In this document: positions 28,401 to 60,309 of the stretch, piece by piece
Layout of the letters: every line of letters starts with the position of its first letter
Numbering within the stretch: position 1 is the stretch's first letter
From: an uncultured Hellea sp.
Lineage (GTDB): Bacteria; Pseudomonadota; Alphaproteobacteria; Caulobacterales; Maricaulaceae
DNA length: 64,000 bases
Direction of reading: 5' to 3'
NCBI GenBank assembly: GCA_938007935.1
Contig: CALLMD010000006.1
Span: 1-64,000 of the forward strand
Notes under the pieces: generated by a model
Told to the model about the DNA's origin: nothing
The model's database searches: none
Seen by the model: only the letters and a program-made list of their open reading frames with translations
Made by a program: the position numbers and the translations under genes

Positions 28401-28523
28401 GAAATATCCTTTTATAGAACCTTCCCGTCTCTTAAATCACTCCGACAAATTCTCCAGTCAATCCATGGTCTTTGTTGTGGATGGAATGTGAGGAGAGCGC
28501 AACGATATGTTTTTAAAAAGAAA

Positions 28524-28570
28524 AATGGTAGTGAGAGTGAGACTTGAACTCACGACCTCAGGATTATGAG
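28524..28570. repeat. att site copy 1: left end of element A (displaced tRNA 3' half)
   Basis: aatggtagtgagagtgagacttgaactcacgacctcaggattatgag, identical over 47 bp to 51120-51166 and 60231-60277. Confidence 0.93.
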
Positions 28571-28854: not shown

Positions 28855-29094
28855 TTGGAGCAAAAAAACTTCGTATTCAATGTATCACAAATTGACAAAG
28901 AAATTGACTTTAACGATTTAAGGGACGAATTGATAAAGCATGTCTGCAAAGTAAGACTTTCTGTAAAAAACGCATGCCACGGCAAAGTTAACTTAAATGG
29001 AAATAGATACCAATGGTTTTTTGGGTATCACGAAGATTACTTCCGTAAAAATAGAACCAAAAACATCCATGAGTTAATCTTAGTTTTAGAATAA
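28855..29094 (+). CDS. small hypothetical protein
   Basis: 79-aa ORF with non-repetitive composition, convergent with 29086-29622. Confidence 0.4.
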   Translation: MEQKNFVFNVSQIDKEIDFNDLRDELIKHVCKVRLSVKNACHGKVNLNGNRYQWFFGYHEDYFRKNRTKNIHELILVLE

Positions 29095-29622
29095 ATAATG
29101 GTTGAATATAGAATATGTAACACTAATTACACGTATAGTCGCTGATATAATAATTAGCAAAGCCCCCACTAATACTAGAGCGCGAACAGCATTTTTCCAT
29201 TTTAATTTTGATATCTCCTCTTTCACCCAATAGTCCCTTATCAAACCTTCACGGGTGCGTTCAATTTGGCTATCAGGAATGTATTCTGGAGCTATTTCAC
29301 CAAGTTTTCTTCCACTTAATAACAGGTCCTCAACTGTACCATACACTTTGATAATTTTAGGAGCGAATAGAGAAAAAATGAGTACTGAAAAAGACAAAAG
29401 TAATAGTCCATAGTACATTAATATCGGCTCTATAGAAACGCTATTATCTAACAACCTAGTATATGAAACCGGACTATTATCGGTTGGTTCTTTAGAAAGT
29501 CTAAAAATTATAAATTGCCCTAATAATGGATAAATAAAGCCTGACCATTTCACAGCAGGATGCCATAATACTGATGCTAAAAAGCTCCAAGAAAGTTTAT
29601 CCCAAGAAGTTTTCAATAGCAT
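29086..29622 (-). CDS. small multi-TM protein of unknown function
   Basis: Hydrophobic segments (WSGFIYPLLGQFIIF, LMYYGLLLLSFSVLIFSLF, ALVLVGALLIIISATIRVI); overlaps the upstream ATPase gene by 26 bp. Confidence 0.65.
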   Translation of the reverse strand: MLLKTSWDKLSWSFLASVLWHPAVKWSGFIYPLLGQFIIFRLSKEPTDNSPVSYTRLLDNSVSIEPILMYYGLLLLSFSVLIFSLFAPKIIKVYGTVEDLLLSGRKLGEIAPEYIPDSQIERTREGLIRDYWVKEEISKLKWKNAVRALVLVGALLIIISATIRVISVTYSIFNHYLF

Positions 29623-32427: not shown

Positions 32428-33291
32428 TTAAGACTCAAGTCCGTAATCAAACAAAAATGGATTTGCACTTTTGGAGTCTGTAAACACCCAACCTCGAGAT
32501 AAATCCTTACCTAATTGTTCAAAAGTATTGAAGAGAAAAGCCTTTTTAAAATCATGAAAATTATCTGTTTGGATAAAAGCTATTTTTACACCTTTAAGAA
32601 CATTTTCTTTCATGTGTACCGAACAAATAAGCGGGGAAATTTCTAGCTTATATTTTATAGCAACAGCTCCAGTTTCCAAAACTTCGATGTAGCGCTTAAG
32701 TTGCTTGGTAACGGCCTTAGTCTCTGTGGTTCGGTGAATTTCTAAGATATAGATTCTTGGTTGCCCATTGATCGCTACCCCAAAGATACCGTCTGGCACA
32801 ATGGGAGTTGAGTCGTTTGGCAATCTGATTTCCGTTTTGGGTGTAAAATTGCCCTGCCGTCGTGAGCCAATAATATCGAAGTCCATATCCGTGAAAAGAA
32901 TATCTACATCGGGGCGACTGTTCGCCCATTGCCGAAATCCAATATGGAAATCAACTTGAACGATACGATGCTTTGCAAACATCGCTCCGAACTGGACTTG
33001 GCCTTTGGGATAAGGAAAATTTTCAATCGGTTGTTTGTAAACTTCAGCAAGGTGCTTTGCGCCATGTTCCGTAAGGTAGTGTACTTCGGGCAGAAAATTA
33101 CCAAGTTTACGTTTCTTGGCGAGAGGCTTTCTCGAACGGTGTAGCTTGGGTAATATGTTTTTACGAACGGACGCGTCACTGGCTCCGATGCCAAGTTTTA
33201 CAAATTGAGATACAGTAAGAAACCGATAGATCGATAAAGCGTGTAGAGCTTCAAGAGGTTTAGCCGAAAGTGATTGAACAACTTTACTCAT
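32428..33291 (-). CDS. replication-relaxation family (Replic_Relax)-like protein
   Basis: N-terminal wHTH (ALHALSIYRFLTVSQFVKLGI), HYLTEHGAKHLAE, HRIVQVDFHIGFRQW, PDGIFGVAINGQPRIYILEIHR; ATGA overlap with the upstream ATPase gene. Confidence 0.65.
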   Translation of the reverse strand: MSKVVQSLSAKPLEALHALSIYRFLTVSQFVKLGIGASDASVRKNILPKLHRSRKPLAKKRKLGNFLPEVHYLTEHGAKHLAEVYKQPIENFPYPKGQVQFGAMFAKHRIVQVDFHIGFRQWANSRPDVDILFTDMDFDIIGSRRQGNFTPKTEIRLPNDSTPIVPDGIFGVAINGQPRIYILEIHRTTETKAVTKQLKRYIEVLETGAVAIKYKLEISPLICSVHMKENVLKGVKIAFIQTDNFHDFKKAFLFNTFEQLGKDLSRGWVFTDSKSANPFLFDYGLES

Positions 33292-35045
33292 TGGGCAGAG
33301 ACATCAGGAATTGGGAACTTGGGCTTTCGCAGTGGTTCTGCGTGTTTTGGATTAGGTTTATTTGTAACCTCTTTATCATCTCGATAGTAAGTTTGGCATT
33401 GAGTGGCTTTTAGGTTTTCCCACTTAGCTTTAGCTAATGCGTGTTTGTTTCCGACAATACTGATCTTGGTTTTGATAGCTTGGCGTTCAGATTGAATTTG
33501 AAAGAACTCTAACTTTTTAAGCTCCCGAATATCATCGGCACTGATGGGGTGTTCCTCGGCCATCTTCTTAGCGGTTTTATTTTTATTGCGGCCAATCAGG
33601 TAACAACCAACATTGCCAAAGATTGCGTCTAGTAAAGCACTACCAACTTGTTCTTTGCGTTGAGTGGCAAGGGTAAGGTACAATCCAAACTTTCGGCTCT
33701 CGCCTAGAATTTCTTCAATCTTGGAACTTACAAAATATTGGCATTCATCGGCAAAGAGATGAATGGGTCGGCGTTTCGTTTTCGGGCGGCTCATTGCATA
33801 GTTGGTGATAAAGGCGTTTATTAATTGCCCCGTTGTCCGAATGGCCTCTTGCGTGTGATAATCTGGGTTGAAATGAAAGACGATGAGCTTTCCCGCCTCT
33901 AAACACTCGGCTAGATTAAATGTACTCGGATTACACAAGAACTCTCTTACGGTTGGGTCGCGTATGATTTCTCCAAATCGATAACGTAGCGCCTCTTTGG
34001 TACTTTCAAAATTTCGAGAGTAAAACTGGTGTTGGAAAAAGTCTTTGTCCTGTGCATTGGGTAAATAGTTTTGCCCATACTGAACAAGGTCGCGATTACG
34101 CTTATCATCCATAAAACGGACAAGCTCTGTGAAGTTTGAATGTTTCCTATGTAATAAAACGCCGATACAGGGCGTCAGGAGTGCCCTCTGTGGTCTGGTG
34201 AGTTTTTCACCGATAATTTGCTCTAATGCCCCTAAGAATTGAACCTGAGCGCGATTAAGCGATATTTCATCCGTTCTTTGTATGTCGAATGGATTGAAAC
34301 TGATGTGTTTGCCTATGAAGTGACTAGGCGAGACATAAACGAGACGGTCATTGGTAGCATTCTCTTTAAAGCGAGCTACATCAAGTGCCAGATCGCCATG
34401 CGGATCGAGCACGACCAATGCAGGCTTTGTATTTTTCGTCAGGTAATGACGAATGAGCGTTTTGATAGCTTCTGATTTTCCTGCACCAGTTCCCCCTGTG
34501 ATAAAGGTATGACTTTTACGGGCTTTCTCACTGATATAAAAAGTCTTAGGCGTAAAAAAAAAGTTCTGCGTAAAGTCCGACCAATTATCTTGAAGGGTAG
34601 ACATAATAAAATCCAAATACCCTCCAACATCAAATTTACCAGCCGCGCGGATAGTGCGTATCTGTAAGAGTAGTTTCTGGTAGCTTTTGTGTTTTTCTTC
34701 ATATTGGGCGTAGGCTTTTTGGTATCTATAAATGCGAGCAACTTTTCGGTCTGAGGCGCTATCATATTTTATTTTTACAGGATCAAAGGCTTCATCTTCT
34801 AACTGAGGCTCAATTGGCACTTCGGGAGTAGTGCTCTGTAACCTCAGATATTCTGTGAAAGTCCAAAATGCGCCCGTACGCTCTGCTACAATATCGCAAA
34901 GGTGTTGAGTTAGGTTGGGGTTATAAATGAGCCTGTAGTGACCACAGAGCAACTGGGCATCATCAATATCATTCTCAGAGTCAGAAAAAGAAACCCCAAA
35001 CTCTTTGAGAGCCAGCTTAAACTCATGTTCAAAATCAGGAATCAT
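33288..35045 (-). CDS. VirD4/TraG-like (TraM-recognition/DUF87-type) DNA-translocation ATPase
   Basis: Walker A FITGGTGAGKSEAIKT, VVLDPHGDLA, LFADECQYF, TLATQRKEQVGSALLDAIFGNVG; Met at 35045 taken as likely start. Confidence 0.75.
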   Translation of the reverse strand: MIPDFEHEFKLALKEFGVSFSDSENDIDDAQLLCGHYRLIYNPNLTQHLCDIVAERTGAFWTFTEYLRLQSTTPEVPIEPQLEDEAFDPVKIKYDSASDRKVARIYRYQKAYAQYEEKHKSYQKLLLQIRTIRAAGKFDVGGYLDFIMSTLQDNWSDFTQNFFFTPKTFYISEKARKSHTFITGGTGAGKSEAIKTLIRHYLTKNTKPALVVLDPHGDLALDVARFKENATNDRLVYVSPSHFIGKHISFNPFDIQRTDEISLNRAQVQFLGALEQIIGEKLTRPQRALLTPCIGVLLHRKHSNFTELVRFMDDKRNRDLVQYGQNYLPNAQDKDFFQHQFYSRNFESTKEALRYRFGEIIRDPTVREFLCNPSTFNLAECLEAGKLIVFHFNPDYHTQEAIRTTGQLINAFITNYAMSRPKTKRRPIHLFADECQYFVSSKIEEILGESRKFGLYLTLATQRKEQVGSALLDAIFGNVGCYLIGRNKNKTAKKMAEEHPISADDIRELKKLEFFQIQSERQAIKTKISIVGNKHALAKAKWENLKATQCQTYYRDDKEVTNKPNPKHAEPLRKPKFPIPDVSAQ

Positions 35046-35306
35046 GAAGCCAATTTCAAGGTGTTTTGAAAGGTTGTTTTCAACATGACACCGTGATCTC
35101 ACTAAGGGTATGAATTATATAGAGAAAACAGAGAGTTTCAAATTAAACTCTCCTATCAATACATTGTATTGAGCTAGTGTTTTCTTCTCGCGTTTCATCC
35201 TCGTCATTCGCTCTGCTCTTTCCTCGTCTTCAACTTAATCAGTCAACCCTAATCAATCCAAACATATTGCCAGTCGGCGGCTGGGTGGGCCGCCCCATTG
35301 TCTGCC

Positions 35307-35867
35307 CTACTTTGGAAGCTGTCCCTTTTTAAACAGCTCACTCAAATGCTTGGATATTGTCTCCACTTCAATATTCTCGGCAAAGGCTTTCATCTTTGCC
35401 GAATATTTTTCCTTAAAAGCGAAAACATCTTTTTCTAGCTTTGACTGATGCGTGGCAAAATCTTTACTTTGTTGATGCTCTTGCTTTGAGAGATTCAACT
35501 CTTGCTTGGCTTTGATTTGATTTTCATAAATTCTTAGTTCCAATCCCAAAATCTGCTCGTCCATTGACCAATGGTGACGGATAAAATCATCTCGCCTTCT
35601 CATGATTAATTCTAAAGCTTCACGTTCAAGTTCTCTGGCGTCTTCTGCCATATTAAACTGGTGATCGAGCAGCCTATTGTCTTTGTTAAGCTCGTGCTGG
35701 AGTTCCATTAGCTCTTTGGCATTTGCGCCCTCGATTAAAACGGATTGTGTTTTTTGCCGTTCTTTTCGAGCATCATTGGCTTCTTGACGTTGACGCGTTA
35801 GCTCAGCGCTTTTCTCTAGGCGAATAATGGCATCTTGCTGACGTTTCTCTGCGGCTTGCCAATCCAT
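35307..35867 (-). CDS. coiled-coil protein of unknown function
   Basis: ORF in a tightly overlapping cluster; Gln/Glu/Lys-rich heptads. Confidence 0.6.
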   Translation of the reverse strand: MDWQAAEKRQQDAIIRLEKSAELTRQRQEANDARKERQKTQSVLIEGANAKELMELQHELNKDNRLLDHQFNMAEDARELEREALELIMRRRDDFIRHHWSMDEQILGLELRIYENQIKAKQELNLSKQEHQQSKDFATHQSKLEKDVFAFKEKYSAKMKAFAENIEVETISKHLSELFKKGQLPK

Positions 35868-36277
35868 TAATTGCTGCCGCTTGCTATTTCGGATAGCTGA
35901 TTTAATCGCTGTTGTTGATTATCATTAAGCTGCTGAACAAGCTTCATATCACTATCTGCAACAGCACTAATTTTGCGATGCACGTCATTAAGGTCGTTGG
36001 TAAGGTTTTCCATTTTTTCAATCAAAATAGCTTTCACCTCTTCTACGCCTAGCATTTGCGTCTTAAGAGTTTCCGTTAGGGTCTCATGAAGTGTTTCATT
36101 TTCCTTACGAAGCTCTGAAACGGCTTTATTAAGCTCCGCAACTTCAGCTTTATAATCTCTGATTTGAGGCTCTAATTCCTTTAAGGCTAGCCGAGCCTCG
36201 TAATCCTCTTCTTGCTCATGTTCGTACTGTTTTGCTTTATCACGTGCTTTTTCTGCTTTTGATCGGAAATCAACCAT
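35867..36277 (-). CDS. coiled-coil protein of unknown function
   Basis: Overlaps the downstream gene by 1 bp; long heptad-rich sequence. Confidence 0.6.
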   Translation of the reverse strand: MVDFRSKAEKARDKAKQYEHEQEEDYEARLALKELEPQIRDYKAEVAELNKAVSELRKENETLHETLTETLKTQMLGVEEVKAILIEKMENLTNDLNDVHRKISAVADSDMKLVQQLNDNQQQRLNQLSEIASGSN

Positions 36278-36280
36278 TGT

Positions 36281-36736
36281 TTACTCCACTCCAGCTTCGG
36301 TTAATGTCTCAAAAGCATGACGACCAGTAACGGCAGCTTCCTCATTATCAAGCCCCCCACACTCTGCCATCAAACTTAAAATTGTCGTGATAGAGCGTTT
36401 ATGGTCTCCTGAAATTTTATGGGCGTCCAATGATTCAATCAATAACGCTCGTGAAGCTCTGGCCTGTTTAAAATCATGATAGAGAGATTTACTTTCAGAA
36501 CTTTGTAATATCGAACGCTTGGTGAAAGAGAGGAAGGGATTTACGCCCCCTTCTTTTTTCGCAGCGACCTTTTTAGCATTGTGTTTTTTCAACTCCACAA
36601 AATGCTCCGTTGAAAAAGATTGCGACAGATGTTCAAAATGAATGATCAATGCCTTCATACATTTCATAACATCAGCAACTTGAATGCTGGTCAGGTCAAA
36701 TTTATCCTGAATTTTTTGACTAAGTTCTTCGCCCAC
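36281..36736 (-). CDS. hypothetical protein, first gene of the minus-strand cluster
   Basis: 3-bp spacing to the next gene; coherent globular composition. Confidence 0.6.
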   Translation of the reverse strand: MGEELSQKIQDKFDLTSIQVADVMKCMKALIIHFEHLSQSFSTEHFVELKKHNAKKVAAKKEGGVNPFLSFTKRSILQSSESKSLYHDFKQARASRALLIESLDAHKISGDHKRSITTILSLMAECGGLDNEEAAVTGRHAFETLTEAGVE

Positions 36737-36977: not shown

Positions 36978-38006
36978 ATGTCAAATCCAACATTACAGCA
37001 TGCGAAAGAACAAATTCGAAATAAATACCCGCACCTCATTTCATTATTATCGCCTGATGAAATAAAACTTTATGAGCAAGAAATAGGAAATCAAGAAACA
37101 CCGATCTGGCGATATTGGGAAGACTATGTTTTTAAAACCCTCATTCTAGGGAAAAGCCCTATTACCATAAAATCAGTTCGAGATGGTCTAAATACAATCA
37201 TGCGCCACACGGGCATTCTGACCATTGAACAAGCCAATTCACTAGGTGTGTTGGATCAAGCCACATTAGAGCTACAAATAAAACGAAACCAAAAACCAAG
37301 CACGCGCAATACCTATCTCAAAAATTTCAACACCTATTTTATCTGGCTCTATAAAAATAACTTGATCCAACAAAACAATATTGCTCGCATCGAGAAAGGC
37401 CGCGAAGCACCGCCAGATGTAAAACCGCTAAGTTTAGACCAAATTGAGAAGACAGTTCTACATTTTGGGCGAAGACATCATTCAACGGCACTTGAACGCG
37501 CTCGAAATATTTTAATGGTAGACGTGTTCCGATTTTCTGGTGTTCGCCCCTGCGAATTACTCAGCATGAACAATGATGATATTTTTCAAGAAAACGGAGA
37601 GTGGAGAATGGTGATTAATGGCCGCAAACAAAAAGGGCGTTTACGATATTACGAATTGCCTAGTTTTGTTGTTCATTCCTATCAAAATTATATGAGGTTA
37701 CGTTTCGATAAAGACCGATACGAGAAACCATTATTTATCTCTATGTCTTCACGTGAGGGATGGAAAACAAGCGGTCTACAGCAACTATTTAAGACTGTTT
37801 CAAAAGAGCTTGGGTTTCGAATTACCGCCTATGGTTTTCGGCGTTTTATCGCCACTCAAATGAGCCGAAACGGTATCGCCCGCGATGATCTATCCCGTTA
37901 TTTGGGGCATAATCGATTTACGACTACAGATAGGTATATCGCTAGAGAGTGTCATCTAACACGGAATGGCACCGATATGATGAAGCAAATGTACGATGAT
38001 ATCTGA
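36978..38006 (+). CDS. tyrosine recombinase/integrase 1
   Basis: FRFSGVRPCELLSMNNDDI, ITAYGFRRFIATQM, LSRYLGHNRFTTTDRYIA. Confidence 0.9.
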   Translation: MSNPTLQHAKEQIRNKYPHLISLLSPDEIKLYEQEIGNQETPIWRYWEDYVFKTLILGKSPITIKSVRDGLNTIMRHTGILTIEQANSLGVLDQATLELQIKRNQKPSTRNTYLKNFNTYFIWLYKNNLIQQNNIARIEKGREAPPDVKPLSLDQIEKTVLHFGRRHHSTALERARNILMVDVFRFSGVRPCELLSMNNDDIFQENGEWRMVINGRKQKGRLRYYELPSFVVHSYQNYMRLRFDKDRYEKPLFISMSSREGWKTSGLQQLFKTVSKELGFRITAYGFRRFIATQMSRNGIARDDLSRYLGHNRFTTTDRYIARECHLTRNGTDMMKQMYDDI

Positions 38007-38434: not shown

Positions 38435-39337
38435 TCATTCCATGTTATTCATCAAATGTCTTTCGACACTTTCACGTTTATCATCCAATGAAAGATGCGC
38501 GTAAACTTGGGTGGTCTTTATACTCGAATGACCCAATAAACCAGATACGGCGTAAATATCACGAGACCCGCGATAAGTATGTGTAGCGAAAGTGTGCCGC
38601 AGAACTTGCGGAGAAAAATCTATACCTGACCTTTCTTTAAGCTTACGGCACATCACCTGAATTGCGCGAGGGCTTAATGGTGTATCTTGATTGACACATG
38701 TAAAGAAACTTATTTGCTTGGTCTTTTTCGATCTCCGTTCAACGTATTCCAACAAAAAATAAAGCAGTCGAGAAGAAATAGGCACTTGTCGATCTTTGTT
38801 CCATTTTCCTTGTCTTACGAAAATGACGCCATTTTCTAAGTCTACGTCCAACCGTTTTAGGTTGGATATTTCAGAAAGCCTTAGACCCGCAAAAATCATA
38901 ATCCCAATAATAGCTCTGTTTCTGATACCCTCCAGTTTATATGTGTAAGGAAGATGGTAAGCCGTTTCCAGTAACTGTTCACAGACATCTGGCATAAGAT
39001 ATTTGGGCAATCTTTTTTCTAGTGGTGGCTTATCGATGTCATCAGTATAATTGTGGGGTAGGTATTTCTTCTTTACGCACCAGTTACAAAGTGCCCGCAA
39101 ATGTTTCAAATAAGATCGGAATGTCACAACCGACCAATTCCTTTTTGTACGTCCATCAAGAAGAAACTTTTCAATGATTTCTGGCGATAGATCACTCAGT
39201 GTTTCTACATTGGAGGCTTTAGCAAAAAAGCTAAATGTACTTCGATAGCTTTTGATCGTCGCGGGTTGGAAGTTCTTAAATATTTTTCCGTGTTGTAAAT
39301 ACAGATCACAGATAAGGTTGAAGTCGTCGGATTTCAT
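38435..39337 (-). CDS. tyrosine recombinase/integrase 2 (XerC/D-like)
   Basis: FAGLRLSEISNLKRLDVD, QVLRHTFATHTY, VSGLLGHSSIKTTQVYAHLS. Confidence 0.93.
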   Translation of the reverse strand: MKSDDFNLICDLYLQHGKIFKNFQPATIKSYRSTFSFFAKASNVETLSDLSPEIIEKFLLDGRTKRNWSVVTFRSYLKHLRALCNWCVKKKYLPHNYTDDIDKPPLEKRLPKYLMPDVCEQLLETAYHLPYTYKLEGIRNRAIIGIMIFAGLRLSEISNLKRLDVDLENGVIFVRQGKWNKDRQVPISSRLLYFLLEYVERRSKKTKQISFFTCVNQDTPLSPRAIQVMCRKLKERSGIDFSPQVLRHTFATHTYRGSRDIYAVSGLLGHSSIKTTQVYAHLSLDDKRESVERHLMNNME

Positions 39338-39467
39338 AGCACAAGAAAGAGAAAATAATGAGGCTGTCTCGCTATTTTCAAAACTTTTGAGGCGGTTCGT
39401 CCCCCTTTCGGGGGAGTGTCACCAGAAGCTATATTTCCTTGAGTATCAATTGCCGTCTAGTCAGTCA

Positions 39468-39525
39468 TGGCGGAGAAGGAGGGATTCGAACCCTCGGTAC
39501 CCGTGAGGGTACACACCCTTAGCAG
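39468..39525 (-). pseudogene. 3' half of tRNA-Ser(GCT) (anticodon loop to CCA), 5' half missing; probable attachment-site remnant
   Basis: Minus strand CTGCTAA-GGGTG-TGTACCCTCACGGGTACC-GAGGGTTCGAATCCCTC-...-GCCA; sequence 5' of the loop (CATAG) cannot pair with GGGTG. Confidence 0.82.
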
Positions 39526-39702
39526 CTATGAAGACTTCTTACTAAAAGCACTTAGGTCAGTTATAGAGCGGAAAATGTAGCTTCTGAGGTTATAAATTCT
39601 CCAAGATCGGAGAGCCTCATTATTTTGAGAAGAGCAAAATGATTTTACTTGCAATTCAGTATTCTGCAAACTCAAATATAGTTAGAATCAGGACAATCGC
39701 GT

Positions 39703-40072: not shown

Positions 40073-43000
40073 ATGTTAAAGGGAGGATTCGCTGATAAAC
40101 TAGGAAATCGCTATGAAGCCAAATGGACTATCAGTAGGCTTCTATTGGTGCTCGCTGGTGACTATGAACATCTTACTTATGAGGGCATCAACGAGGACTT
40201 TAAGGGTTTTGAATTTAGATTAAGCGACTCACAAATTACACAGTGGCACCAAACTAAGATAAACGCCCCTAAAGGTAACTGGACTATTGGAGCACTTCAG
40301 AGAGAAAATTTGCTAAAAGCATTTAAGGATCGGCTAGATGCTGATCAAAATGCACAATGTCATTTCATTTCCCAAGACAATGCTAAAAGCCTCAGAGAAC
40401 TCGCGAATGATGCCCGTCTAGCAAATTCACCTGAGGAGTTTGTGTCGGCTCTAGCTGATGGTCGAATCTCAGATTTTGAAAAACTTAAATATACTTGGGA
40501 TTGTGATAGCAATCATGCATGGCAATTGTTGCAGGGTATCTACGTCAAAGTAATTGTCGAAAGTGAAATCGATACGAACATTACGGCTCTAAGTAGGTTA
40601 CTGCTCAATGTCGATGGCGACACTTACGCGATTTTGCGAAAACATGTCGAAGAAAATTTGAATAAGAGGGTCAATAGAGAGACTCTAAAAAATTGGATCA
40701 ACTCAGAAGATGGTGTTGAATTCAAAGCATGGGCAAGTCCCAAATCCAATATTGAGAGAATACAAGCTGCAAATGAGAGGTATTTATCTACCTATATCCC
40801 ATTCGGAATAGGCGGCAAAACAATCACTAGGAATCAGACTGAAGTTATATGCTCCGACATTATCGACTCTGAAGGCTCAAAAATTGTAATTCTTGCAGGC
40901 GTTGCAGGAAGCGGAAAATCAGGCGCCGCTAGACAAATCATCGATACCTTTAATGAGGCAGGTATTCCTACTTTAGCATTTAGAGTAGATCACTATTTAG
41001 ATTGCCGGCACCCTTCTGAAATAGGCAAAGCCGTTTTAGATATAAATGATTCACCTGTAGCACTACTGAAAGCTCTTTCACCCAGAGAAACTTCCGTGCT
41101 GATCATTGATCAGTTGGACGCTGTTAGTGAAGTGTCAGGTCGAAATGGCGTTGTGAAATCGGGTCTGTTTGAACTTCTTGATGAAGCTTCTCAATACGGA
41201 ACTGTGAAAGTTATTATTATTTGTCGAAGTTATGATCTCGAAAATGATGATCGCTTTAGGAAGCTCTCGAATGGATATAAAACTACCAAAGTTGATCTCC
41301 CCTTACTTAACTGGAATGAAGAAATAGTGCCTGTCTTAGAGGCACTAGACTATGATTGCTCGCAGTTTTCTGAACGACAAAAACGGCTGCTATCTGTTCC
41401 CGTTAACTTAGCTGTCTTTATCGAAACTGGCGATAAATACTTTTCATTTAAAAACCGTGCTGATCTTTTTGGTAAATTAATCAGAAAGAAAGAAAAAGTC
41501 TTTGTAAAACTCGGCTTCTCTTGGTCACTCATGACGCCTTTACAAAAGGTGGCAAAATGGATGAGCGATAGACAGGAGCTATCTGCTCCCGAAAGCATCT
41601 TAGATGAATTTTCAGGTTCTGGTGACTTCTTAAGCTCAGAAAACCTGATTGTCATTTCAAATAGAAAGATCAACTTCTTTCACGAAAGCTTTTTCGATTA
41701 CATTTACGCCCGTTCCTTCATTTCTGGAGAACAATCCGTTCTGGAGATGGTTTTATCAGGAGAACAACATCTCTTCCGAAGAACCCAAGTCCGTCAGATT
41801 TTTGCGCTTATGCGAGAAGCCGATCACTCAAATTACATTCAACAACTGAAGGGCTTACTAATTAGTCAGTTTGTACGTTACCACTTAAAGCTATCAATCG
41901 CACAATGGCTCGCCTCATTAGATGATCCTAGCGCCGATGAGCTAGGTGTCGTCCTTGGATTAGGAAACAGTGAATTAAATAGCCTCCAAATAGTAGTTCT
42001 ATTCTCAAACGCAAATTGGTTCTCTCTACTTCATGAGCAAAAAATCATCGAAAAAACCCTACATGGAAGTTCTGAAAAGAATTCGCGTATAACGCTAAAC
42101 TGGTTATCACAAATAGCAGGACGGCATCCGTCTGAAATAGCCAAGTTAATAGAGAATTGGTGGGCTAAAGATGAAACAAAAGCAGAGCAGCTTGTAGACT
42201 GGTTTGGGTTTCTCAGACGTAATAAGCCAGATGATGAGCTGTTAGAATTATGCGGGCAGGTAATAAAATTTCGTCCCAAGAATCTTTTCAAAGATGAAGG
42301 TCGTGACCGTATAATGATGCTATTGCATACTTGGGTTGATCATGAACCTGAAAAATGTGGAGCTTTAGTAAAAGAACTGTTCGATGCGTGGTTTGAAATG
42401 CATCCCGATGCCAATCTACTTGACCGCGACGATTTTAAGCTCTTGGACAATCATTCGTTAAGCGAGCTTGCGAAAAAGTCATCCCGAGCATTTGTAGAGG
42501 GAACAAGAGATGCGATATTGAGGACTGTAAGAGAAACAGTCGAACAAGGAGAAGAAGGCCGTAGATGGTATTCTCTCATGTCGTCCATGAGATCAGATTA
42601 CCTACATGGTTTCGACGGCCTGTTTCAACTTTTTGAAAAATCACTCTGTGAGCTAAGTAGAACCGAGCCTGATTTCACTAGAGAAACTCTCGCCCGCCTG
42701 CCAGCAAGCCTTCATCCGCGATTTATGGGGTTACATCTGGGAATAATTGGTACAAGCTCCGACACATTCGGAGACATGCTTAGTTCACTCCTTGACGATG
42801 ACAATGCCCTAAAAGCTGGAGTCGATGGGGCTGAATGGAAACCGTTCGCTATAGCTTGTAAAGCCATGTTGGGAGTATCTAACGATTTACGAGATATAAT
42901 CGAAGCTAAGATTTTTTCTATTGATCACGAAATTCAAAGAGCAAAGAGGCTTTGGGACCTATTAAAAAGAGGAGAGGCCAATGAGTGGGTTGATAAAAAC

Positions 43001-44644
43001 TCGGTTCTGAGAAGCTTAAATTTTTCAGGTTGCAGAGAGTGGAATATTCTACACTTCATCGGCATCGAAAACTTATCTGAGAAAGGGAGGAGGCGTTATC
43101 AGCAACTGAGTCACAAGTTTAATACCGAACATATTGATGAAGAAAACTCAGTTCGTATGATTGGAGTTCACTCGCCTATCGGTGCTGAGCAAGCACAACG
43201 AATGAATGATGAGCAGATAATTTCTGCTATGCTAAAATATGATACTGACGAGGGAAAAGATTGGAGGCGCGGAGGTGCATATGAGCTATCTTCTGTAATC
43301 ACAGATCAAGCAAAGAATGACCCAAACCGATACTTAGCTTTACTTTTAAAGTTGCCTCTAAATATCAATCATCTATACCATTCAGGAGTTTTGAGAGGTA
43401 TACGCGATGCGGAAGCCTTCGATAATGAGGTGGCAAGAACGGCTATTCTTCATATCCATGAACATTTTAAATCCAAGCTATCAGACGAAATTTTAAGCGT
43501 GATAGAGACTCATTCATCACTCATTTTATCCGATAAAATAAAAGAACTAGTCTTCGATTATGCCGTTAATGGAGACAGCCCTAGCAGAGAAGACCTTCGT
43601 GAATACAGCGACGATGACTCTAATAATTCTAAAAACAAACTACTCACCGTTGATGATCTTGTTCGATCAGGTGGTGGTGGCATTATGATACAATCCGTTC
43701 ATGGAGGGCGTGCAAAAGCTTGGGACACGCTCAAACGAATTGGCTGGGATCATTCCTCAATACACCAAGAAATTTGGGATTTAGTAGAAACACAAGCTAT
43801 CGATGAAAAGTCGGTAAGCATCAGGGCTAGAATATTTGATGCAATGACGCCACTCTTTAATGACGATAAAAAACGTTATGAAAATGCCTGCCACACACTC
43901 TTCGACCAGAAGACCATAGGAAACAGATCAATCGATCCAATAGCAATATTAGCGACACTTCATGGCGTAAATATGCAAAAATATATCGATTTCAATATGC
44001 CTAAATTCGCTTCAAAATGCATCCACAGGATGACCACAAATGACAATAAAAATGTTCAAGCCGTTGGGACATGGTGGTTGTTTTGTGAGCATTTTCGACA
44101 TGGACGCTCAGGTATACCGCTCAAAGCCGTCGATGAAATGAGCGATCAAGAAAAAATCCTTTATGCTGATATCTTGTCACATGCGTTTCATTGGGACGAA
44201 GTGGAAAAGTCTGCGGAAACTGATTTAATCAGAATGTTCAATGACCCCAATATCAAAATAGGCGAACAAGCCTCTGAAGTTTTCAGGAATTGTAAGCCCG
44301 AAGATTTTCATCGTTGTTTAAAGTTGGCGGAAGCATATATCCGAACAGATGCATACTTAGAAGCATCAACTTACATACTATACGCATTAGATAGCGCAGA
44401 ATGTGATGTCATGGAACTTGTAGTGTTCGGTGCAGAACGATTAATCGCAAGTATTATTGATAAAGGTGATCAACATGGTAGCCGAGGAACAGGCCTTTAT
44501 AAATTACAGGAGCTATTAGCGCGAGAATATGCTGCTTCGGAAAAACGACAAGATATCAGAAAGAGAATATTAGATTTGATCGACCTTATGCTTGAAAATG
44601 ATATTTACGGCACTGAAAAAATTACCTTGGCAAATGATAGATAA
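40073..44644 (+). CDS. Avs-like STAND NTPase with putative N-terminal PD-(D/E)XK (DUF4297/Cap4-like) nuclease and long C-terminal repeat/sensor region; candidate antiphage protein
   Basis: N-term GNRYEAKWTISRLLLVLAGDYEHLTYEGINEDFKGFEF...QWHQTK; Walker A ILAGVAGSGKSGAAR; Walker B SVLIIDQLDAVSE; about 1000-aa helical C-terminus. Confidence 0.68.
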   Translation: MLKGGFADKLGNRYEAKWTISRLLLVLAGDYEHLTYEGINEDFKGFEFRLSDSQITQWHQTKINAPKGNWTIGALQRENLLKAFKDRLDADQNAQCHFISQDNAKSLRELANDARLANSPEEFVSALADGRISDFEKLKYTWDCDSNHAWQLLQGIYVKVIVESEIDTNITALSRLLLNVDGDTYAILRKHVEENLNKRVNRETLKNWINSEDGVEFKAWASPKSNIERIQAANERYLSTYIPFGIGGKTITRNQTEVICSDIIDSEGSKIVILAGVAGSGKSGAARQIIDTFNEAGIPTLAFRVDHYLDCRHPSEIGKAVLDINDSPVALLKALSPRETSVLIIDQLDAVSEVSGRNGVVKSGLFELLDEASQYGTVKVIIICRSYDLENDDRFRKLSNGYKTTKVDLPLLNWNEEIVPVLEALDYDCSQFSERQKRLLSVPVNLAVFIETGDKYFSFKNRADLFGKLIRKKEKVFVKLGFSWSLMTPLQKVAKWMSDRQELSAPESILDEFSGSGDFLSSENLIVISNRKINFFHESFFDYIYARSFISGEQSVLEMVLSGEQHLFRRTQVRQIFALMREADHSNYIQQLKGLLISQFVRYHLKLSIAQWLASLDDPSADELGVVLGLGNSELNSLQIVVLFSNANWFSLLHEQKIIEKTLHGSSEKNSRITLNWLSQIAGRHPSEIAKLIENWWAKDETKAEQLVDWFGFLRRNKPDDELLELCGQVIKFRPKNLFKDEGRDRIMMLLHTWVDHEPEKCGALVKELFDAWFEMHPDANLLDRDDFKLLDNHSLSELAKKSSRAFVEGTRDAILRTVRETVEQGEEGRRWYSLMSSMRSDYLHGFDGLFQLFEKSLCELSRTEPDFTRETLARLPASLHPRFMGLHLGIIGTSSDTFGDMLSSLLDDDNALKAGVDGAEWKPFAIACKAMLGVSNDLRDIIEAKIFSIDHEIQRAKRLWDLLKRGEANEWVDKNSVLRSLNFSGCREWNILHFIGIENLSEKGRRRYQQLSHKFNTEHIDEENSVRMIGVHSPIGAEQAQRMNDEQIISAMLKYDTDEGKDWRRGGAYELSSVITDQAKNDPNRYLALLLKLPLNINHLYHSGVLRGIRDAEAFDNEVARTAILHIHEHFKSKLSDEILSVIETHSSLILSDKIKELVFDYAVNGDSPSREDLREYSDDDSNNSKNKLLTVDDLVRSGGGGIMIQSVHGGRAKAWDTLKRIGWDHSSIHQEIWDLVETQAIDEKSVSIRARIFDAMTPLFNDDKKRYENACHTLFDQKTIGNRSIDPIAILATLHGVNMQKYIDFNMPKFASKCIHRMTTNDNKNVQAVGTWWLFCEHFRHGRSGIPLKAVDEMSDQEKILYADILSHAFHWDEVEKSAETDLIRMFNDPNIKIGEQASEVFRNCKPEDFHRCLKLAEAYIRTDAYLEASTYILYALDSAECDVMELVVFGAERLIASIIDKGDQHGSRGTGLYKLQELLAREYAASEKRQDIRKRILDLIDLMLENDIYGTEKITLANDR

Positions 44645-46123: not shown

Positions 46124-47005
46124 CTATTTACTACGATTTATTCGCCCCTGCTTCCGCTTCCTTTTCTTCAATTTATCCCGATAAGCTTTTGGCACTGATT
46201 TCTGATTGCTAACTGACTTCGGTTTTGAAGCGTGAATGTCGAGATGATCTCTCAAGGCAAAATAATCAGGTTCACGAGTTTTGTCCGACCAGATAAAATT
46301 ACTGACTTTGCGAGCTATGGTTTGATTAATCTGACCATCCGAATTGATAATACCAAGCTCTCTCAAGTTGAGATTCCAGTAAAGGTTTTCTTGCTTTAAC
46401 TCACCTGTTCCATCAGGGCGGCGGCACCAACTCAGCGCGTATTCAATATCATCTTTGTTCGCCGATTGGCTCGTATTATCGAGATTGGGATCAATAAATA
46501 TCTGCATGAAGCATTTGTCGATATCAGGGATATTACCGTTACATCGGTCATAAAAAGCCAACAATTCCGACATATATTCCAATGATAAGTCTTGGCGGAT
46601 CATCTCTACGATCAAACCTATTTGCGGGGTTTTATTCCAATAAGGCGCTACCAACTGGGCAAGCGCCGCTAAACGGGCATAATCCACTTCTCCGTTAGCT
46701 GTTTTAAGCTTGAGATCATTTAGATCAAAAGTAGGTGGCTTAAAGGAAACGCCTTCACCTGTTTTTCTAGCCGCTTCTAATGCGGGACGGATTTTATTAT
46801 AGGCTTGGTTCCATCGTTTAGCACTACACAGCCAGATATAGAGCTGATTGATATAATCGGACAATGGCGCGTCCGCAAAACCATCACCGAGCATTTCAGG
46901 CGGTAAAATATTATCTAAGGGTATGCCCGTATCGCCTTTGCGTATGTTAAAATAGATTATCCCTGCGTCGTTCTTAAACAGCCCAACCGTTCCATTTTCT
47001 TCCAT
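46124..47005 (-). CDS. hypothetical protein
   Basis: 293-aa ORF, codon usage consistent with neighbours. Confidence 0.6.
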   Translation of the reverse strand: MEENGTVGLFKNDAGIIYFNIRKGDTGIPLDNILPPEMLGDGFADAPLSDYINQLYIWLCSAKRWNQAYNKIRPALEAARKTGEGVSFKPPTFDLNDLKLKTANGEVDYARLAALAQLVAPYWNKTPQIGLIVEMIRQDLSLEYMSELLAFYDRCNGNIPDIDKCFMQIFIDPNLDNTSQSANKDDIEYALSWCRRPDGTGELKQENLYWNLNLRELGIINSDGQINQTIARKVSNFIWSDKTREPDYFALRDHLDIHASKPKSVSNQKSVPKAYRDKLKKRKRKQGRINRSK

Positions 47006-47023
47006 GTATTATCAGTGTACGGA

Positions 47024-48421
47024 TTATGCTTCGCCTGAAAAATCCAAGTTCTGATTTTCTCGCTCCGCTTCAGAAACAGGATCAACAAATTGCGGATATA
47101 ATCGGTGTAGATAATCCACTAGCCCTAACTGATCGGAATGCCCTGAAGCATAGTTTTCCTGCGTGTAATCCCCGAATGCCGCGATGACCTCTAAGTTTGG
47201 ATGTCCGTCTGCATTTTCCAATCCCAATCGTTTCAAGACTTTGGTTGTTCCAGCTTGGTTATTTTCCCAGCCAAAGGTGGTTTGGGTTTCAGAGAATAAG
47301 CGACTTTGATTTTGGATAAGGGTTTGTTGGTGTTCAAAGTTTTCAATGTCACCATCATACCCTGCAAAACCACCAGTCATGTGACTAATCACTTGTCGAA
47401 ACCGATTAACGGTCAAAGGATCAAAAGCTCCGCCGCTATCCAATACTGAGAAATCAATTTTGTAGATATTCTCAACAAAGCCCGTGGTTCCAAAGCTTTC
47501 AGTCGTATGCCAGTAATGCATGACTTCGACCATTAGGCCAATGTCCTCGCCTGACCAACCCGTAACGTCTTTGGTGACGATATGATCGCCTGATCGAGCT
47601 TCGATAATCTGTCGGCCTGACGGTTCGGCATAGCCGCTCACGCCCGATCTAAATTCACGCTTATTGTCTTCGGTATTGCTAAAGACCCCATCAGCATTTT
47701 TCTCCGAGAGAACGTCCTGCACATCTGAGCCTGTGACAACATCTCGAAGACGTGTTTTAGTTTCTGCCGAGAATGCTTCTGATTTATCTATCTCAGCTAA
47801 TACAGGCGAGAACATGGTGTTGAGATCATTCGCGCCTAAGTCAATCGGTACAGATGCCAACATAGCTTCAAAGGCGGCTTGCTCTTGTGGGTCTTCAATA
47901 ACGCTCCGTAAATCGGCAAGTGTCTTTCTAAACTGGGTTATTTGTTTCAGGGCTATTTCAGCTTTGTCAAATTTCGACACCTGCGCTTCAATCCGTTCTA
48001 ATTTGGTATCAATACTGCCACCCTTTTCAAATTCTTCCCGCGCTACTTCATTTAATTTTGTTAGCACTTCAGTCGTTGTGTCAATCTTCTCTAGCTCTTC
48101 TGTTTTCGCGGCGATTTCAGTGTTTTCAATACAGGTATCAAGTTCAAATTCAGCGAAATCAGGATCATCTAATATAGCTGGATCAGTGATAAGTAATTTG
48201 GCCGCTTCATGTGCCGCCATTGATAAATGTAGTGAAGAGTTACATTTATCTCGTAGGTAATCTTGAGCGTGTTCTGGCAAGCTTAATAGGGAGGTATCAA
48301 CGCTATCGCTTAAAGATACTCGTTCTTGAGTGGATGCCTCTAAAGCGTCTGATTTCTCCTGCAAATAATCTGCGTTTGACTCAGGTGATCTCTCGCCGCC
48401 AGCCAACTCATAAGAGTTCAT
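47024..48421 (-). CDS. hypothetical protein with N-terminal coiled coil
   Basis: 465-aa ORF; contains a segment paralogous to the adjacent lipoprotein. Confidence 0.6.
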   Translation of the reverse strand: MNSYELAGGERSPESNADYLQEKSDALEASTQERVSLSDSVDTSLLSLPEHAQDYLRDKCNSSLHLSMAAHEAAKLLITDPAILDDPDFAEFELDTCIENTEIAAKTEELEKIDTTTEVLTKLNEVAREEFEKGGSIDTKLERIEAQVSKFDKAEIALKQITQFRKTLADLRSVIEDPQEQAAFEAMLASVPIDLGANDLNTMFSPVLAEIDKSEAFSAETKTRLRDVVTGSDVQDVLSEKNADGVFSNTEDNKREFRSGVSGYAEPSGRQIIEARSGDHIVTKDVTGWSGEDIGLMVEVMHYWHTTESFGTTGFVENIYKIDFSVLDSGGAFDPLTVNRFRQVISHMTGGFAGYDGDIENFEHQQTLIQNQSRLFSETQTTFGWENNQAGTTKVLKRLGLENADGHPNLEVIAAFGDYTQENYASGHSDQLGLVDYLHRLYPQFVDPVSEAERENQNLDFSGEA

Positions 48422-48453
48422 CCACTAATTATAGCAGATATACGCTCAAATTC

Positions 48454-48810
48454 CTAATTTTGCGGACGTGCGCCCTTTTCAAATTCTTCCCGCGCCATCT
48501 GTTGAAACTCTTTACTTAACACTTCATTGGTTGTGTTGCCTTCTTCGATTTTGGTATCTAACGCGGCGATTTCAGCTTGTCTGGCCGCTTTTGCTTCTCG
48601 CATACAGGTTAGTTTTTCAGCTTTCGTAGCACCGACCAAGGCTCTACATTCTGCTTGTGTTCGTACTTTCACTTCTACCACTGCCGCCATTGACGTAAGC
48701 TCGGCTGTGGTTGTCTGAGGCGCGTTCTTATCCTCTGCTCCAGCATCAGCACATCCTGCTAACGCCAAGCCACCTGCCGCCGTTGCCAAGAGAGTTCTAA
48801 GTTTTCCCAT
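48454..48810 (-). CDS. small predicted lipoprotein
   Basis: MGKLRTLLATAAGGLALAGC lipobox; shares NTTNEVL..AREEFEKG with 47024-48421. Confidence 0.6.
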   Translation of the reverse strand: MGKLRTLLATAAGGLALAGCADAGAEDKNAPQTTTAELTSMAAVVEVKVRTQAECRALVGATKAEKLTCMREAKAARQAEIAALDTKIEEGNTTNEVLSKEFQQMAREEFEKGARPQN

Positions 48811-48840
48811 GAAAGGTATATTAAGTACCATAAAGGCTAC

Positions 48841-49554
48841 CTATTCTCCATTTTTTGTCAAATATTCGTCGAGCTTAGGAGCCAGTAATTCCCATAATTG
48901 ATCGGCCAAACCCGCCTGATTTTCTTGGACAGGCATTGGGTCAAATATGTTGTGAGTGAGCGCGGCTTCTCGCGCCTGAGCTTCATCTATGCCGAGATAA
49001 CGGATGGTTGACACAGATGATCTATGGCCGAGTAAACGACCAATAAGCTCCACTGTAACACCTTGCTGATAAAGGTAGATCGCCTTTGAACGTCGTAGAG
49101 AGTGTGCACTAATATTCTGCGAAGGAATACCAACCGCTTTAACCCATGACTTAATCAGTGTTCGATAAAAGCCAATCGTTATCGGTTGACCATGTGGGTC
49201 TTTAGTTCGCGTGAAAATATAATCGTGTTCTCGTTTCTGACTTGCGATCACCCAGCTCTTAAGAGCCTTACGCGTATCAAGGGTAAGTACAGGAAAAACA
49301 GATTGAGATGTTTTCTTCTGCCGTAACGGAAAGCTTTGATGAACTGCCCCATCTGAAAGCATTACATCTCGGGTTTTCAGGTTCAACAAATCCGAGGCTC
49401 GGAGCATCGTATCTATGGCCACCATAAACAGGCAGTAGTCATGTGAATGGTTTTTTAATTGCGATCTGATCTGCGCAATTTCAGGCACGGATAAGGCTCG
49501 CCGTGCACCGACACTGCGGCCTTTGTTCCACGGCTGGCCGTAATTTCTCGTCAT
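48841..49554 (-). CDS. short tyrosine recombinase 3 (catalytic domain only)
   Basis: DTMLRASDLLNLKTRDV, ISAHSLRRSKAIYLYQQ, IGRLLGHRSSVSTIRYLGI; lacks the SAM-like N-terminal domain. Confidence 0.88.
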   Translation of the reverse strand: MTRNYGQPWNKGRSVGARRALSVPEIAQIRSQLKNHSHDYCLFMVAIDTMLRASDLLNLKTRDVMLSDGAVHQSFPLRQKKTSQSVFPVLTLDTRKALKSWVIASQKREHDYIFTRTKDPHGQPITIGFYRTLIKSWVKAVGIPSQNISAHSLRRSKAIYLYQQGVTVELIGRLLGHRSSVSTIRYLGIDEAQAREAALTHNIFDPMPVQENQAGLADQLWELLAPKLDEYLTKNGE

Positions 49555-49746: not shown

Positions 49747-50136
49747 ATGTCAGTTGAAATATCTGAACTTCATATTGCGATAGCGCAGGCTAAAGGATTC
49801 CAAGTCTACGAGACTTATAGCGAACCAAAGGCCGCACAGATTTTAGGCCTTAGCCTCTCTACCCTGAGTCGATTACGGCATAGCGGGTCTATTGGCTTTA
49901 TCCAAAAAAGCGAACGCCGTGTGGGGTATTTCGGGTTTCACCTCATCGACTATTTATTAGCGCGACAATCATGCCCAAATACAGAACAACGAAAAGATAC
50001 CAAGTCGGTGATTACTGGCTCTCTAAGCAAAGCCGTAGCCCCGCATGGTGCCGTACATGGTACTGCAAACGTACCAAGCAAACCCGCCGTACTTCACTCC
50101 TCACGACAGATTTTAACGAGGCCAAGGATCGCTTAA
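49747..50136 (+). CDS. HTH excisionase-like DNA-binding protein
   Basis: YSEPKAAQILGLSLSTLSRLRHSGSIGFIQKSERRVGYFGFHLIDYL (MerR/excisionase-type HTH); overlaps the following integrase ORF. Confidence 0.65.
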   Translation: MSVEISELHIAIAQAKGFQVYETYSEPKAAQILGLSLSTLSRLRHSGSIGFIQKSERRVGYFGFHLIDYLLARQSCPNTEQRKDTKSVITGSLSKAVAPHGAVHGTANVPSKPAVLHSSRQILTRPRIA

Positions 50137-51143
50137 ATCAGTGGTTTATTTTGGAATGCCAAAAGAAAAATCAACCAAGTGATCATGTGACTATCGCTTC
50201 AATCTTTGCGCGGTATTATGAAAAGCATGGTCGGCATTTAAGCTCATATGATAGCGTTAAACGGAACCTCGAACACTGGTTGGATTTCCACGGTGAAGCA
50301 ACGCTCGAAGAAGCGGCTGATCTACGCCAACAAGAAATCTTTAGAGACTGGCTTCAGACAGAACGCAAACTCGGTTTAAACTCGGTGCGTAAGGTTATTA
50401 CTATCGGAAAGGCTGCTTTTAACTGGTCGTACAAACGCGGTGAAATTGAAAACGTCCCCTACTTTGAAACGGTCAAAGTACCAACACCTGAACCGCTCGG
50501 ACGACATCTTGAAATCTCAGAAATTGCCGCCCTCTTTCGAGCCGCTGATAAACCACATATCAAAATGTTTATGATCATGCTCATAGCGACAGCGGCGCGG
50601 CCAAAGGCTGTCTTAGATTTACAGTTCGATCAGATCGGCTTCAAACGTGACATCATTGATCTGAACCCGAAAGGCAGAACGCAAACGACTAAAACGCGGC
50701 CAATAGTCAAAATACCAAAATCTATAAAGCCGCTTCTAAATTTAGAACAAAGCATGAACTTAAATTCTTACCTAATCCATTACAAAGACGCACCGATTAA
50801 GAGCACTCGATCCGCTTGGCAAAACTTACGGGATGCCGCTGGATTAGATAAAAAAGTCATGCCCTATTCTATACGCCGCACAATTGCACGGTTCATGAGA
50901 CAGCAAGGGGTTCCTGCTTGGGAAGTAGCGGAACAACTGGGACATAAGTCCACTGGCTACCGCATTACAGAGCTATATACGGCTCATAGTCCTGACTATT
51001 TAGAAAAAGCTGTAGAGGCGATTGATGTATTCTTTGACCAATTAACGTGTGAATTACGTGTGAGTCGTCTTGAAGACATTTTTCATGGCTCTGAAAAACC
51101 GTTAAAAATCAAGGAGAAGAATGGTAGTGAGAGTGAGACTTGA
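49971..51143 (+). CDS. tyrosine recombinase/integrase 4, likely cognate integrase of element A
   Basis: LIATAARPKAVLDLQFDQI, MPYSIRRTIARFMRQQ, VAEQLGHKSTGYRITELYTAH; last codons lie in the att core. Confidence 0.92.
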   Translation: MPKYRTTKRYQVGDYWLSKQSRSPAWCRTWYCKRTKQTRRTSLLTTDFNEAKDRLNQWFILECQKKNQPSDHVTIASIFARYYEKHGRHLSSYDSVKRNLEHWLDFHGEATLEEAADLRQQEIFRDWLQTERKLGLNSVRKVITIGKAAFNWSYKRGEIENVPYFETVKVPTPEPLGRHLEISEIAALFRAADKPHIKMFMIMLIATAARPKAVLDLQFDQIGFKRDIIDLNPKGRTQTTKTRPIVKIPKSIKPLLNLEQSMNLNSYLIHYKDAPIKSTRSAWQNLRDAAGLDKKVMPYSIRRTIARFMRQQGVPAWEVAEQLGHKSTGYRITELYTAHSPDYLEKAVEAIDVFFDQLTCELRVSRLEDIFHGSEKPLKIKEKNGSESET

Positions 51144-51166
51144 ACTCACGACCTCAGGATTATGAG
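51120..51166. repeat. att site copy 2: junction of elements A and B
   Basis: 47 bp identical to copies 1 and 3 (48 bp with copy 3). Confidence 0.93.
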
Positions 51167-51346
51167 TTCTGTGGAAAAGATTATTACAACGAACATTTGC
51201 GATGTTGAAAGACTGAGTAATGTTATAAAAGATAATATTATCAATGACTTAAAAGCTTTATAGTTCCCCAAATGTGAGGAGCGATTGGGAAAAGATTAAA
51301 AAAATCAAACCCAATTCAAACCGCGGTAAAACTTGAGAGCAAAGAT

Positions 51347-52642: not shown

Positions 52643-52644
52643 CC

Positions 52645-52683
52645 GAGAGAGAAAGAGAGAGAGAGAGAGAGTGTGTGTGTGTG
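52645..52683. repeat. GA/GT dinucleotide microsatellite
   Basis: gagagagaaagagagagagagagagagtgtgtgtgtgtg directly after the integrase stop codon. Confidence 0.9.
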
Positions 52684-52699
52684 GCTCGCTTTAGAGGTT

Positions 52700-54955: not shown

Positions 54956-55292
54956 TACGCTTACAGTAGATTAAGATTAAAAAAGAGCAACTCGTTTTTA
55001 AGAACAGCATTGCAGATATCCAATTATTTGTTCTCTGTAGAAACGCACTTTTCCATTGTTTCTTGTGTCACTTGCGCGATTTTCACAATTCTCTATTAGC
55101 CACCTCGAAAACAACAATGAGGTAGAAAATGGATTAATTTCTTCACCCTGCTAATTAGGGGTTAGACAAACAGCGGATGTGAAAGTGACGATTTTCTTTC
55201 TGAACAGGTAAAGCATATATTATTTCGCTCATACCGAAAGCAAATTCGTTCCTTATCTAAAATAAACTTTAAAACCCCGTGACGGGTTAACA

Positions 55293-55562
55293 GTGGAGCT
55301 TTGCCTAATGGTAAGTGAAATAGAAATAATAGAAAAAAAGAGTAGGTACTGGCAGCTGCCTGACGACACATTAGTGAATACGAAAACTGCCGCGTGTCTA
55401 ATAAACAAATCGCCCAGTACGCTAAAGTTTTGGCGCACCTCAGAGCAAATGCGGGGGCCTAACTGGGTAATAGGACGTCCAGTTAGTTACACTATAGGCA
55501 GTCTGAAAGCATATATCAGGCAGCAACAGTCCAATACATATGATGGGGGTTCTAATGGCTAA
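55293..55562 (+). CDS. AlpA/excisionase-like HTH protein
   Basis: LVNTKTAACLINKSPSTLKFWRTSEQMRGPNWVIGRPVSYTIGSLKAYI. Confidence 0.75.
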   Translation: MELCLMVSEIEIIEKKSRYWQLPDDTLVNTKTAACLINKSPSTLKFWRTSEQMRGPNWVIGRPVSYTIGSLKAYIRQQQSNTYDGGSNG

Positions 55563-55998: not shown

Positions 55999-56226
55999 GG
56001 CCAAATTTGCACTTAGCTTAATACCCAAGTCATATAATTTTGACCTTAGACGGTATCATTTTAACTTACACATATAATAGCCATATACTATGGTGTATTG
56101 TTCTGCAGATTAACCTAAAGAAGATTAAGTAACTAAAAGACAAACTTGCTGGGACGCAGAGTGTTTTCACATAATTATTGCTGTATAATTATAATATTAT
56201 TTTTTTGGTACTTCTAGGAGATTAAT

Positions 56227-60230: not shown

Positions 60231-60277
60231 AATGGTAGTGAGAGTGAGACTTGAACTCACGACCTCAGGATTATGAG
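60231..60277. repeat. att site copy 3, within the intact tRNA
   Basis: Third identical 47-bp copy. Confidence 0.93.
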
Positions 60278-60309
60278 TCCTGCGCTCTAACCAGCTGAGC
60301 TACCCCACC
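60233..60309 (-). tRNA. tRNA-Met(CAT) (elongator; tRNA-Ile2 with CAT anticodon not excluded)
   Basis: Minus strand GGTGGGGTAGCTCAGCTGGTTAGAGCGCAGGACTCATAATCCTGAGGTCGTGAGTTCAAGTCTCACTCTCACTACCA; 77 nt, cloverleaf folds by hand, CCA encoded. Confidence 0.92.

Follow-up and report, generated by a model that had tools for sequence, protein, structure and literature searches.

A tRNA-Ser(GCT) 3′ half inside an integrated element of an uncultured Hellea sp. is probably the tRNA part of a second, unrecombined attP

RESULTS

Genes and features of the locus

The window, by which we mean the whole stretch of 64,000 nucleotides analyzed here, contains two tandem elements at tRNA-Met(CAT), element A (28511-51171) and element B (51117-60282), whose 3′-half repeats are 95-96% identical. 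The features of element A and its target are collected in Table 1. Besides int2 and int3, tyrosine recombinases are encoded in the tandem elements at 48841-49554, 49971-51143, and 51347-52642. The putative internal attP adjoins a gene for a 1523-aa protein with a weak NACHT/AAA match (40073-44644), possibly a defense cargo gene, and element B carries a 612-aa AAA/Toprim-like ATPase (58063-59901), for which the best PADLOC models are ATPase-Toprim, Mad3, AriA, and PtuA.

Table 1. Positions in the window of the features discussed in the text
Feature	Position	Strand	Remark
tRNA-Ser(GCT) 3′ half	39468..39525	-	anticodon loop to CCA; probable tRNA part of internal attP
Anticodon loop CTGCTAA	39519..39525	-	putative crossover (overlap) region, placed where tRNA identity stops; CTGATAA in relative
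CATAGCTG	39523..39530	-	conserved left core half-site, identical in Hellea relative
ATAACTGACCTAA	39552..39564	-	conserved P-arm motif, 34 bp spacing to CATAGCTG in both loci; P-arm local alignment, 0/1000 shuffles
Inner inverted-repeat arm, P side	39573..39586	+	partner 39423-39436
Inner inverted-repeat arm, P′ side	39423..39436	+	partner 39573-39586
Outer inverted-repeat arm, P side	39610..39626	+	contains AGCCTCATTATTTT
Outer arm, P′ side, AGCCTCATTATTTT	39352..39368	-	28 bp before int2 ATG, as in relative; possible operator/arm site
Whole putative internal attP region	39340..39640	-	about 300 bp: P arm, core, tRNA half, P′ arm
Integrase 2 (int2)	38435..39337	-	XerA/XerC-like tyrosine recombinase, 300 aa; presumed to act on internal attP
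Integrase 3 (int3)	36978..38006	+	second tyrosine recombinase, convergent with int2
Three small genes (186, 136, 151 aa)	35307..36736	-	common to window and Hellea
Replication-relaxation-like protein and VirD4/TrwB-like coupling protein	32428..35102	-	shared backbone
Distal tRNA-Met 3′-half att repeat	28511..28570	-	element A
tRNA-Met att repeat	51117..51171	-	between elements A and B
Intact tRNA-Met(CAT)	60233..60309	-	target actually used
Integrase 1 (int1)	49971..51143	+	3′ end overlaps tRNA-Met att repeat; likely integrase of site in use
Terminal module with tyrosine recombinase (48841-49554)	46124..49554	-	related to genes beside Hellea tRNA-Val

The int2 protein matches PF00589 (6.1e-35), and alignment identifies its active-site residues as R153, K178, R247, H270, and Y279. 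The His of the HxxR motif is Gln in the int2 of the window and His in the int2 of a Hellea relative described below, while int3 has Tyr at this position in both loci. No recognizable arm-binding domain was found in int2. Both genes are intact open frames in both loci, and their divergence between the window and Hellea reaches 0.58-0.62 at third codon positions compared with 0.18-0.19 at second positions. This concentration at third positions indicates, as far as codon comparison allows, that int2 and int3 were under purifying selection for most of their divergence.

The tRNA-Ser(GCT) half and its origin

The tRNA-Ser(GCT) 3′ half consists of 58 bases, reading CTGCTAAGGG...GTTCGAATCCCTCCTTCTCCGCCA on the minus strand, and comprises the anticodon loop CTGCTAA (GCT), the anticodon 3′ strand GGGTG, a variable arm of 6 bp and a T arm of 5 bp in which all pairs are kept, the acceptor strand CTTCTCC, G, and CCA. 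Its tRNA identity begins exactly at the first base of the anticodon loop; the tRNA-Met(CAT) half repeats likewise start at the anticodon loop. In a whole-genome search, the half matched the intact host tRNA-Ser(GCT) (G000:C22:65321-65379) at 85% with an E value of 4.5e-11, and the tRNA-Ser(GCT) genes of relatives matched at up to 88% across all 58 bases. Judged from these alignments, the match to tRNA-Ser(GCT) is far beyond chance. Rfam matches to plastid psbL-rps4 and tmRNA fell below gathering scores and were set aside as cross-hits.

An earlier note on this DNA had described a tRNA-Ser(GCT) 3′ half cut in the anticodon loop near integrase 2, and it was right in place, nature, and extent; the gap from the CCA end (39468) to the int2 start codon (39337) is 130 bp, compared with the 131 bp claimed. 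Its statement that the window holds no second copy was also borne out, and the rest of the host genome holds none besides the one intact tRNA-Ser(GCT) and a 15-16-bp repeat belonging to another island.

The fragment does not appear to be a displaced half of the host tRNA-Ser(GCT), and we rejected this origin: the host gene is unbroken and differs from the fragment (85% identity), in which the internal stems are fully paired. The complete tRNA-Ser(GCT) genes read from the best-matching relatives all have GGGAG where the Ser half has GGGTG, and no donor was found among 135 family genomes, in which the best match was 88%. Because the Ser half is 85% identical to the host gene, carries GGGTG instead of GGGAG, and would mispair in a hybrid with the host gene, it is, on these comparisons, from another lineage or drifted, and not a recent capture from the present host.

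The host tRNA-Ser(GCT) locus

The earlier note had proposed looking at whether the host tRNA-Ser(GCT) is occupied, and it proved to have a neighbor. The gene lies on another contig (G000:C22:65321), intact and with its anticodon loop unsplit, and its CCA end is adjoined by an unrelated island of about 5.5 kb (L009, G000:C22:59850-65321). This island encodes a P4-type integrase with an arm-binding domain (C22:60018-61205) and has at C22:59850-59868 a second copy of the final 15-16 bases of the tRNA gene. No parts of element A were seen at the host tRNA-Ser(GCT).

The 10 bases CTGCTAAGGG are identical in the Ser half and the host tRNA-Ser gene, which makes the proposed ability of an attP to target tRNA-Ser plausible in principle. 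However, in a hybrid of the host tRNA-Ser(GCT) and the Ser half, the acceptor stem and the anticodon stem would each contain one mismatch. Because of these mismatches, the present host is probably not the cognate host of the Ser half.

A relative of the module in a Hellea MAG

Relatives were sought by scanning about 85,000 species genomes for patterns and by profile and protein searches in family, order, class, and phylum samples. The collections searched yielded a single close relative of int2, located in a Hellea MAG (L003, on contig G032:C86), with 63% identity and a convergent int3 neighbor that is 65% identical. Further relatives of int2, int3, and the 186-aa gene were sought in IMG/VR, plasmids, phages, and the order, class, and phylum genome samples, which yielded the Hellea locus and weak or partial matches only, namely a degenerate distant match (L014), an int3 remnant (L017), and remote phage integrases. 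The remnant (G019:C1:189672-189983), from the same genus, spans about 100 aa at 65% identity, with no int2 or tRNA nearby.

Upstream of the Hellea int2, in the same place as the Ser half of the window, lies the 3′ half of a tRNA-Ile(GAT), which is 85% identical over 41 bases to the tRNA-Ile of E. coli, used as a yardstick. The likeness between the Ser half and the Ile half is no greater than chance, whereas the sequences around them are conserved. ATAACTGACCTAA precedes CATAGCTG by exactly 34 bp in both loci, the core reads CATAGCTG-N-TAAGG in both (N = C/A), and AGCCTCATTATT stands exactly 28 bp before the int2 ATG in the window and in Hellea alike. The score of the local alignment between the two P arms was reached by 0/1000 dinucleotide shuffles, and that between the P′ arms by 1/1000. 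Neither the window nor the Hellea locus contains a reconstituted tRNA at the internal site.

The inverted arms listed in Table 1 fit P and P′ binding sites for int2 regulation or for an excisionase, and we regard them as candidate sites. The internal attP region folds with z scores of -4.4 on the plus strand and -2.5 on the other strand; the Hellea locus gives a weaker z score of -2.1, and its paired sequences differ from those of the window. A single-stranded folded site of the integron or CTX type was rejected on account of this weaker fold and the differing pairs, and the repeats were read as arm or operator sites instead.

Backbone genes and terminal integration sites

Outside the integrase module, the window and Hellea elements share the replication-relaxation-like protein (36% identity), the VirD4/TrwB-like coupling protein (41%), the three small genes (58, 46, and 41%), and a DUF3768 gene (57%). 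Known here from these shared backbone genes, both look like ICE/IME-type elements. The three small genes, whose annotation gives no function, stand in the same order in the window and in L003 (4210-5607); the first, of 186 aa, was found in these two alone out of 398 genomes of the order. Relative to the three small genes, the int2-int3-attP block has opposite orientations in the two loci. Inversion by flanking sites was considered and not retained, as there is no clear shared inverted repeat at the far end of the block.

On the Hellea contig C86, a tRNA-Val(GAC) 3′ half lies beside a 71-aa gene, next in order after the three small genes that the elements share. An intact tRNA-Val(GAC), followed by the same 3′ flank at 97% identity over 64 bp, lies on contig C22 of the same MAG. 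Beside this intact tRNA-Val are relatives of the window genes at 46124-49554, including the tyrosine recombinase. We infer that C22 and C86, which are unjoined contigs, hold the two ends of one element, most likely integrated at tRNA-Val. Roughly 90 bp away from the clean tRNA-Val 3′ end stands a second, degenerate copy (G032:C86, about 29000-29180), which perhaps records an earlier integration. The same MAG has about 13 closely packed tRNA genes (G032:C44:26246-27525) in a cluster reminiscent of the tRNA arrays of phages or islands.

The terminal halves are identical to their own host genes (Met 45/45, Val 45/45), whereas the internal Ser half is 85% identical to its counterpart; therefore, the terminal sites are the ones in use. 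It thus appears that a terminal module, separate from the internal one, placed each element in a tRNA other than that of its internal half. Judged by position, int1, and not the recombinase at 48841-49554, probably used tRNA-Met; integrase genes that extend across attP are known (PMC4383910).

DISCUSSION

After weighing these data, we consider it probable that the int2 (probably int2/int3) module of element A includes a complete, unrecombined attP whose tRNA portion is the Ser half; this would be a second, possibly retargetable site that is idle here. This estimate concerns the attP nature of the site and covers a working spare and a relic alike. In the window, the core and the tRNA 3′ half run without interruption into the P and P′ arms. 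Because both flanks of the half are element sequence, the site reads as a complete, unrecombined attP and not as an attL or attR, and because the flanks are conserved around the Ser and Ile halves, the 5′ flank is element sequence and not a lost tRNA 5′ half. Three of the features expected of an anticodon-class attP were found here, namely a 3′ half running from the loop to the 3′ end, an adjacent tyrosine recombinase, and element arms on both sides (n = 2). Conservation of the attP in n = 2 loci suggests such a site and does not make a rule.

The claim of the earlier note that a second, non-matching attachment site lies beside integrase 2 thus gains from the conserved element arms that flank the half and from the same arrangement in the Hellea relative. 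Two observations had been named in advance as counting against that claim. The first, a clear difference between the fragment and the host tRNA-Ser(GCT) half, was indeed found (85% identity); as to the second, a lack of the fragment in homologous elements, the sole homologous element has another tRNA half in the same place.

If the site works as its layout suggests, int2 would act on the circular form of element A and exchange strands within the tRNA anticodon loop CTGNTAA, with the loop serving as a 7-bp overlap, and the element-borne 3′ half would replace the displaced host half. In the present host, the internal attP is unused because element A entered tRNA-Met via another integrase, probably int1. 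No int2 recombination product (attL/attR) was found in any genome. The tRNA-Ser(GCT) and tRNA-Ile(GAT) share the loop CTGNTAA with one base different, which may be the reason why the target could change. Extending this idea, int2 and int3 could form a two-recombinase, retargetable module in which the P-arm half-site (CATAG) stays fixed and the tRNA 3′ half can be exchanged, so that any tRNA with the loop CTGNTAA (Ser-GCT, Ile-GAT, and, as predicted, Asn-GTT and Thr-GGT) would be a target and a swap of the half would switch a second route. We offer this full version as speculation and would think it rather unlikely.

The strongest competitor to a working spare site is that int2 and its attP are left over from an older integration system, which the terminal module has since replaced, and are now drifting; the site would then be an attP by origin but dead. 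The Gln that stands for the HxxR His in the int2 of the window, the mispairs between the Ser half and the host gene, and the integration of both elements via other sites all speak for such decay. However, in both loci int2 and int3 still have undisrupted open frames and a divergence pattern like that left by selection, the Ser half retains all of its variable-arm and T-arm pairs, and the arms retain their exact spacing, although selection acting earlier, before the replacement, could also explain each of these features. We regard a dead attP as possible, on the doubtful side.

Several integrases and several attP sites on one element are the known layout of ICE3 (PMC5882170), and element A might similarly be a multi-site element in which the second attP splits the element over two chromosomal sites, with reassembly before transfer. 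This is unlikely, since both elements have their attP intact and are unsplit there, and the host tRNA-Ser(GCT) has no element part beside it. A small int2 element could instead have entered element A and brought its att site with it, and the inversion of the int2-int3-attP module relative to its three neighbor genes, which implies that it moved or flipped as a block, would agree with such an event. However, no second tRNA-Ser half bounds the module, which adjoins the same genes in both elements, and we consider this origin still less likely. The nested element that the earlier note had entertained was rejected, with no second tRNA-Ser half, no attL/attR pair, and a site that is unrecombined. 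Finally, the half folds into tRNA-like hairpins, as would suit an RNA role (decoy or regulator) in place of one in DNA attachment. Such a role is very improbable, given that the half adjoins integrase genes and changes tRNA identity between relatives (Ser versus Ile) while the DNA flanks are conserved.

Integrated islands normally display recombined sites only. If the Ser half belongs to a spare attP, as we favor, a spare site with a swapped half would give a natural case of an integrase module changing its tRNA target, and it would bear on why an element would keep two integration routes, a question that is directly testable. The two loci suggest that islands of this kind keep a spare, retargetable means of integration. 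A further caution is that part of a tRNA gene found within an island does not by itself show that an island ends there.

That attP sites are made of tRNA halves is textbook knowledge (PMC4383910), and the Islander survey counted 2083 of 3919 islands as anticodon-centered, with attP segments of about 250 bp containing the tDNA fragment (PMC4383910). The internal site of element A resembles the class A tRNA attP with its anticodon-loop crossover (Williams 2002; Islander, PMC4383910) in having a tRNA 3′ half beside an integrase, a length of about 250-300 bp, and arm motifs. In contrast to that class, it is internal and unrecombined in an element that sits in another tRNA, and its half differs between relatives while the arms are conserved. 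The tripartite ICE of Mesorhizobium (ICE3; IntS, IntG, and IntM; PMC5882170) also has several tyrosine recombinases, each with its own attachment site, and element A likewise has more than one integrase with its own att (tRNA-Met att/int1 and attP(Ser)/int2, paired by position). However, all sites of ICE3 are used and the element lies over three places (PMC5882170), whereas element A is not split over several chromosomal sites, its attP(Ser) is contiguous in the window, and the second site is idle. Composite islands such as CGI48 with GI21 similarly contain more than one integration module per island, but the inner GI21 has both attL and attR (PMC8978831), whereas the inner site here lacks such a pair and is an apparently intact attP. 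In the tRNA-dependent lysogeny of actinobacteriophages, a tRNA gene is also the target and its fate is at stake; there, the sequence common to attP and the target is limited to about 10 bp and complementation comes from a whole phage tRNA (PMC10865867), whereas a full tRNA 3′ half is carried here. Set beside these systems, the comparison suggests that the present case is unusual in that two diverged elements have each retained an intact spare site, in which conserved arms surround a tRNA half that has been exchanged.
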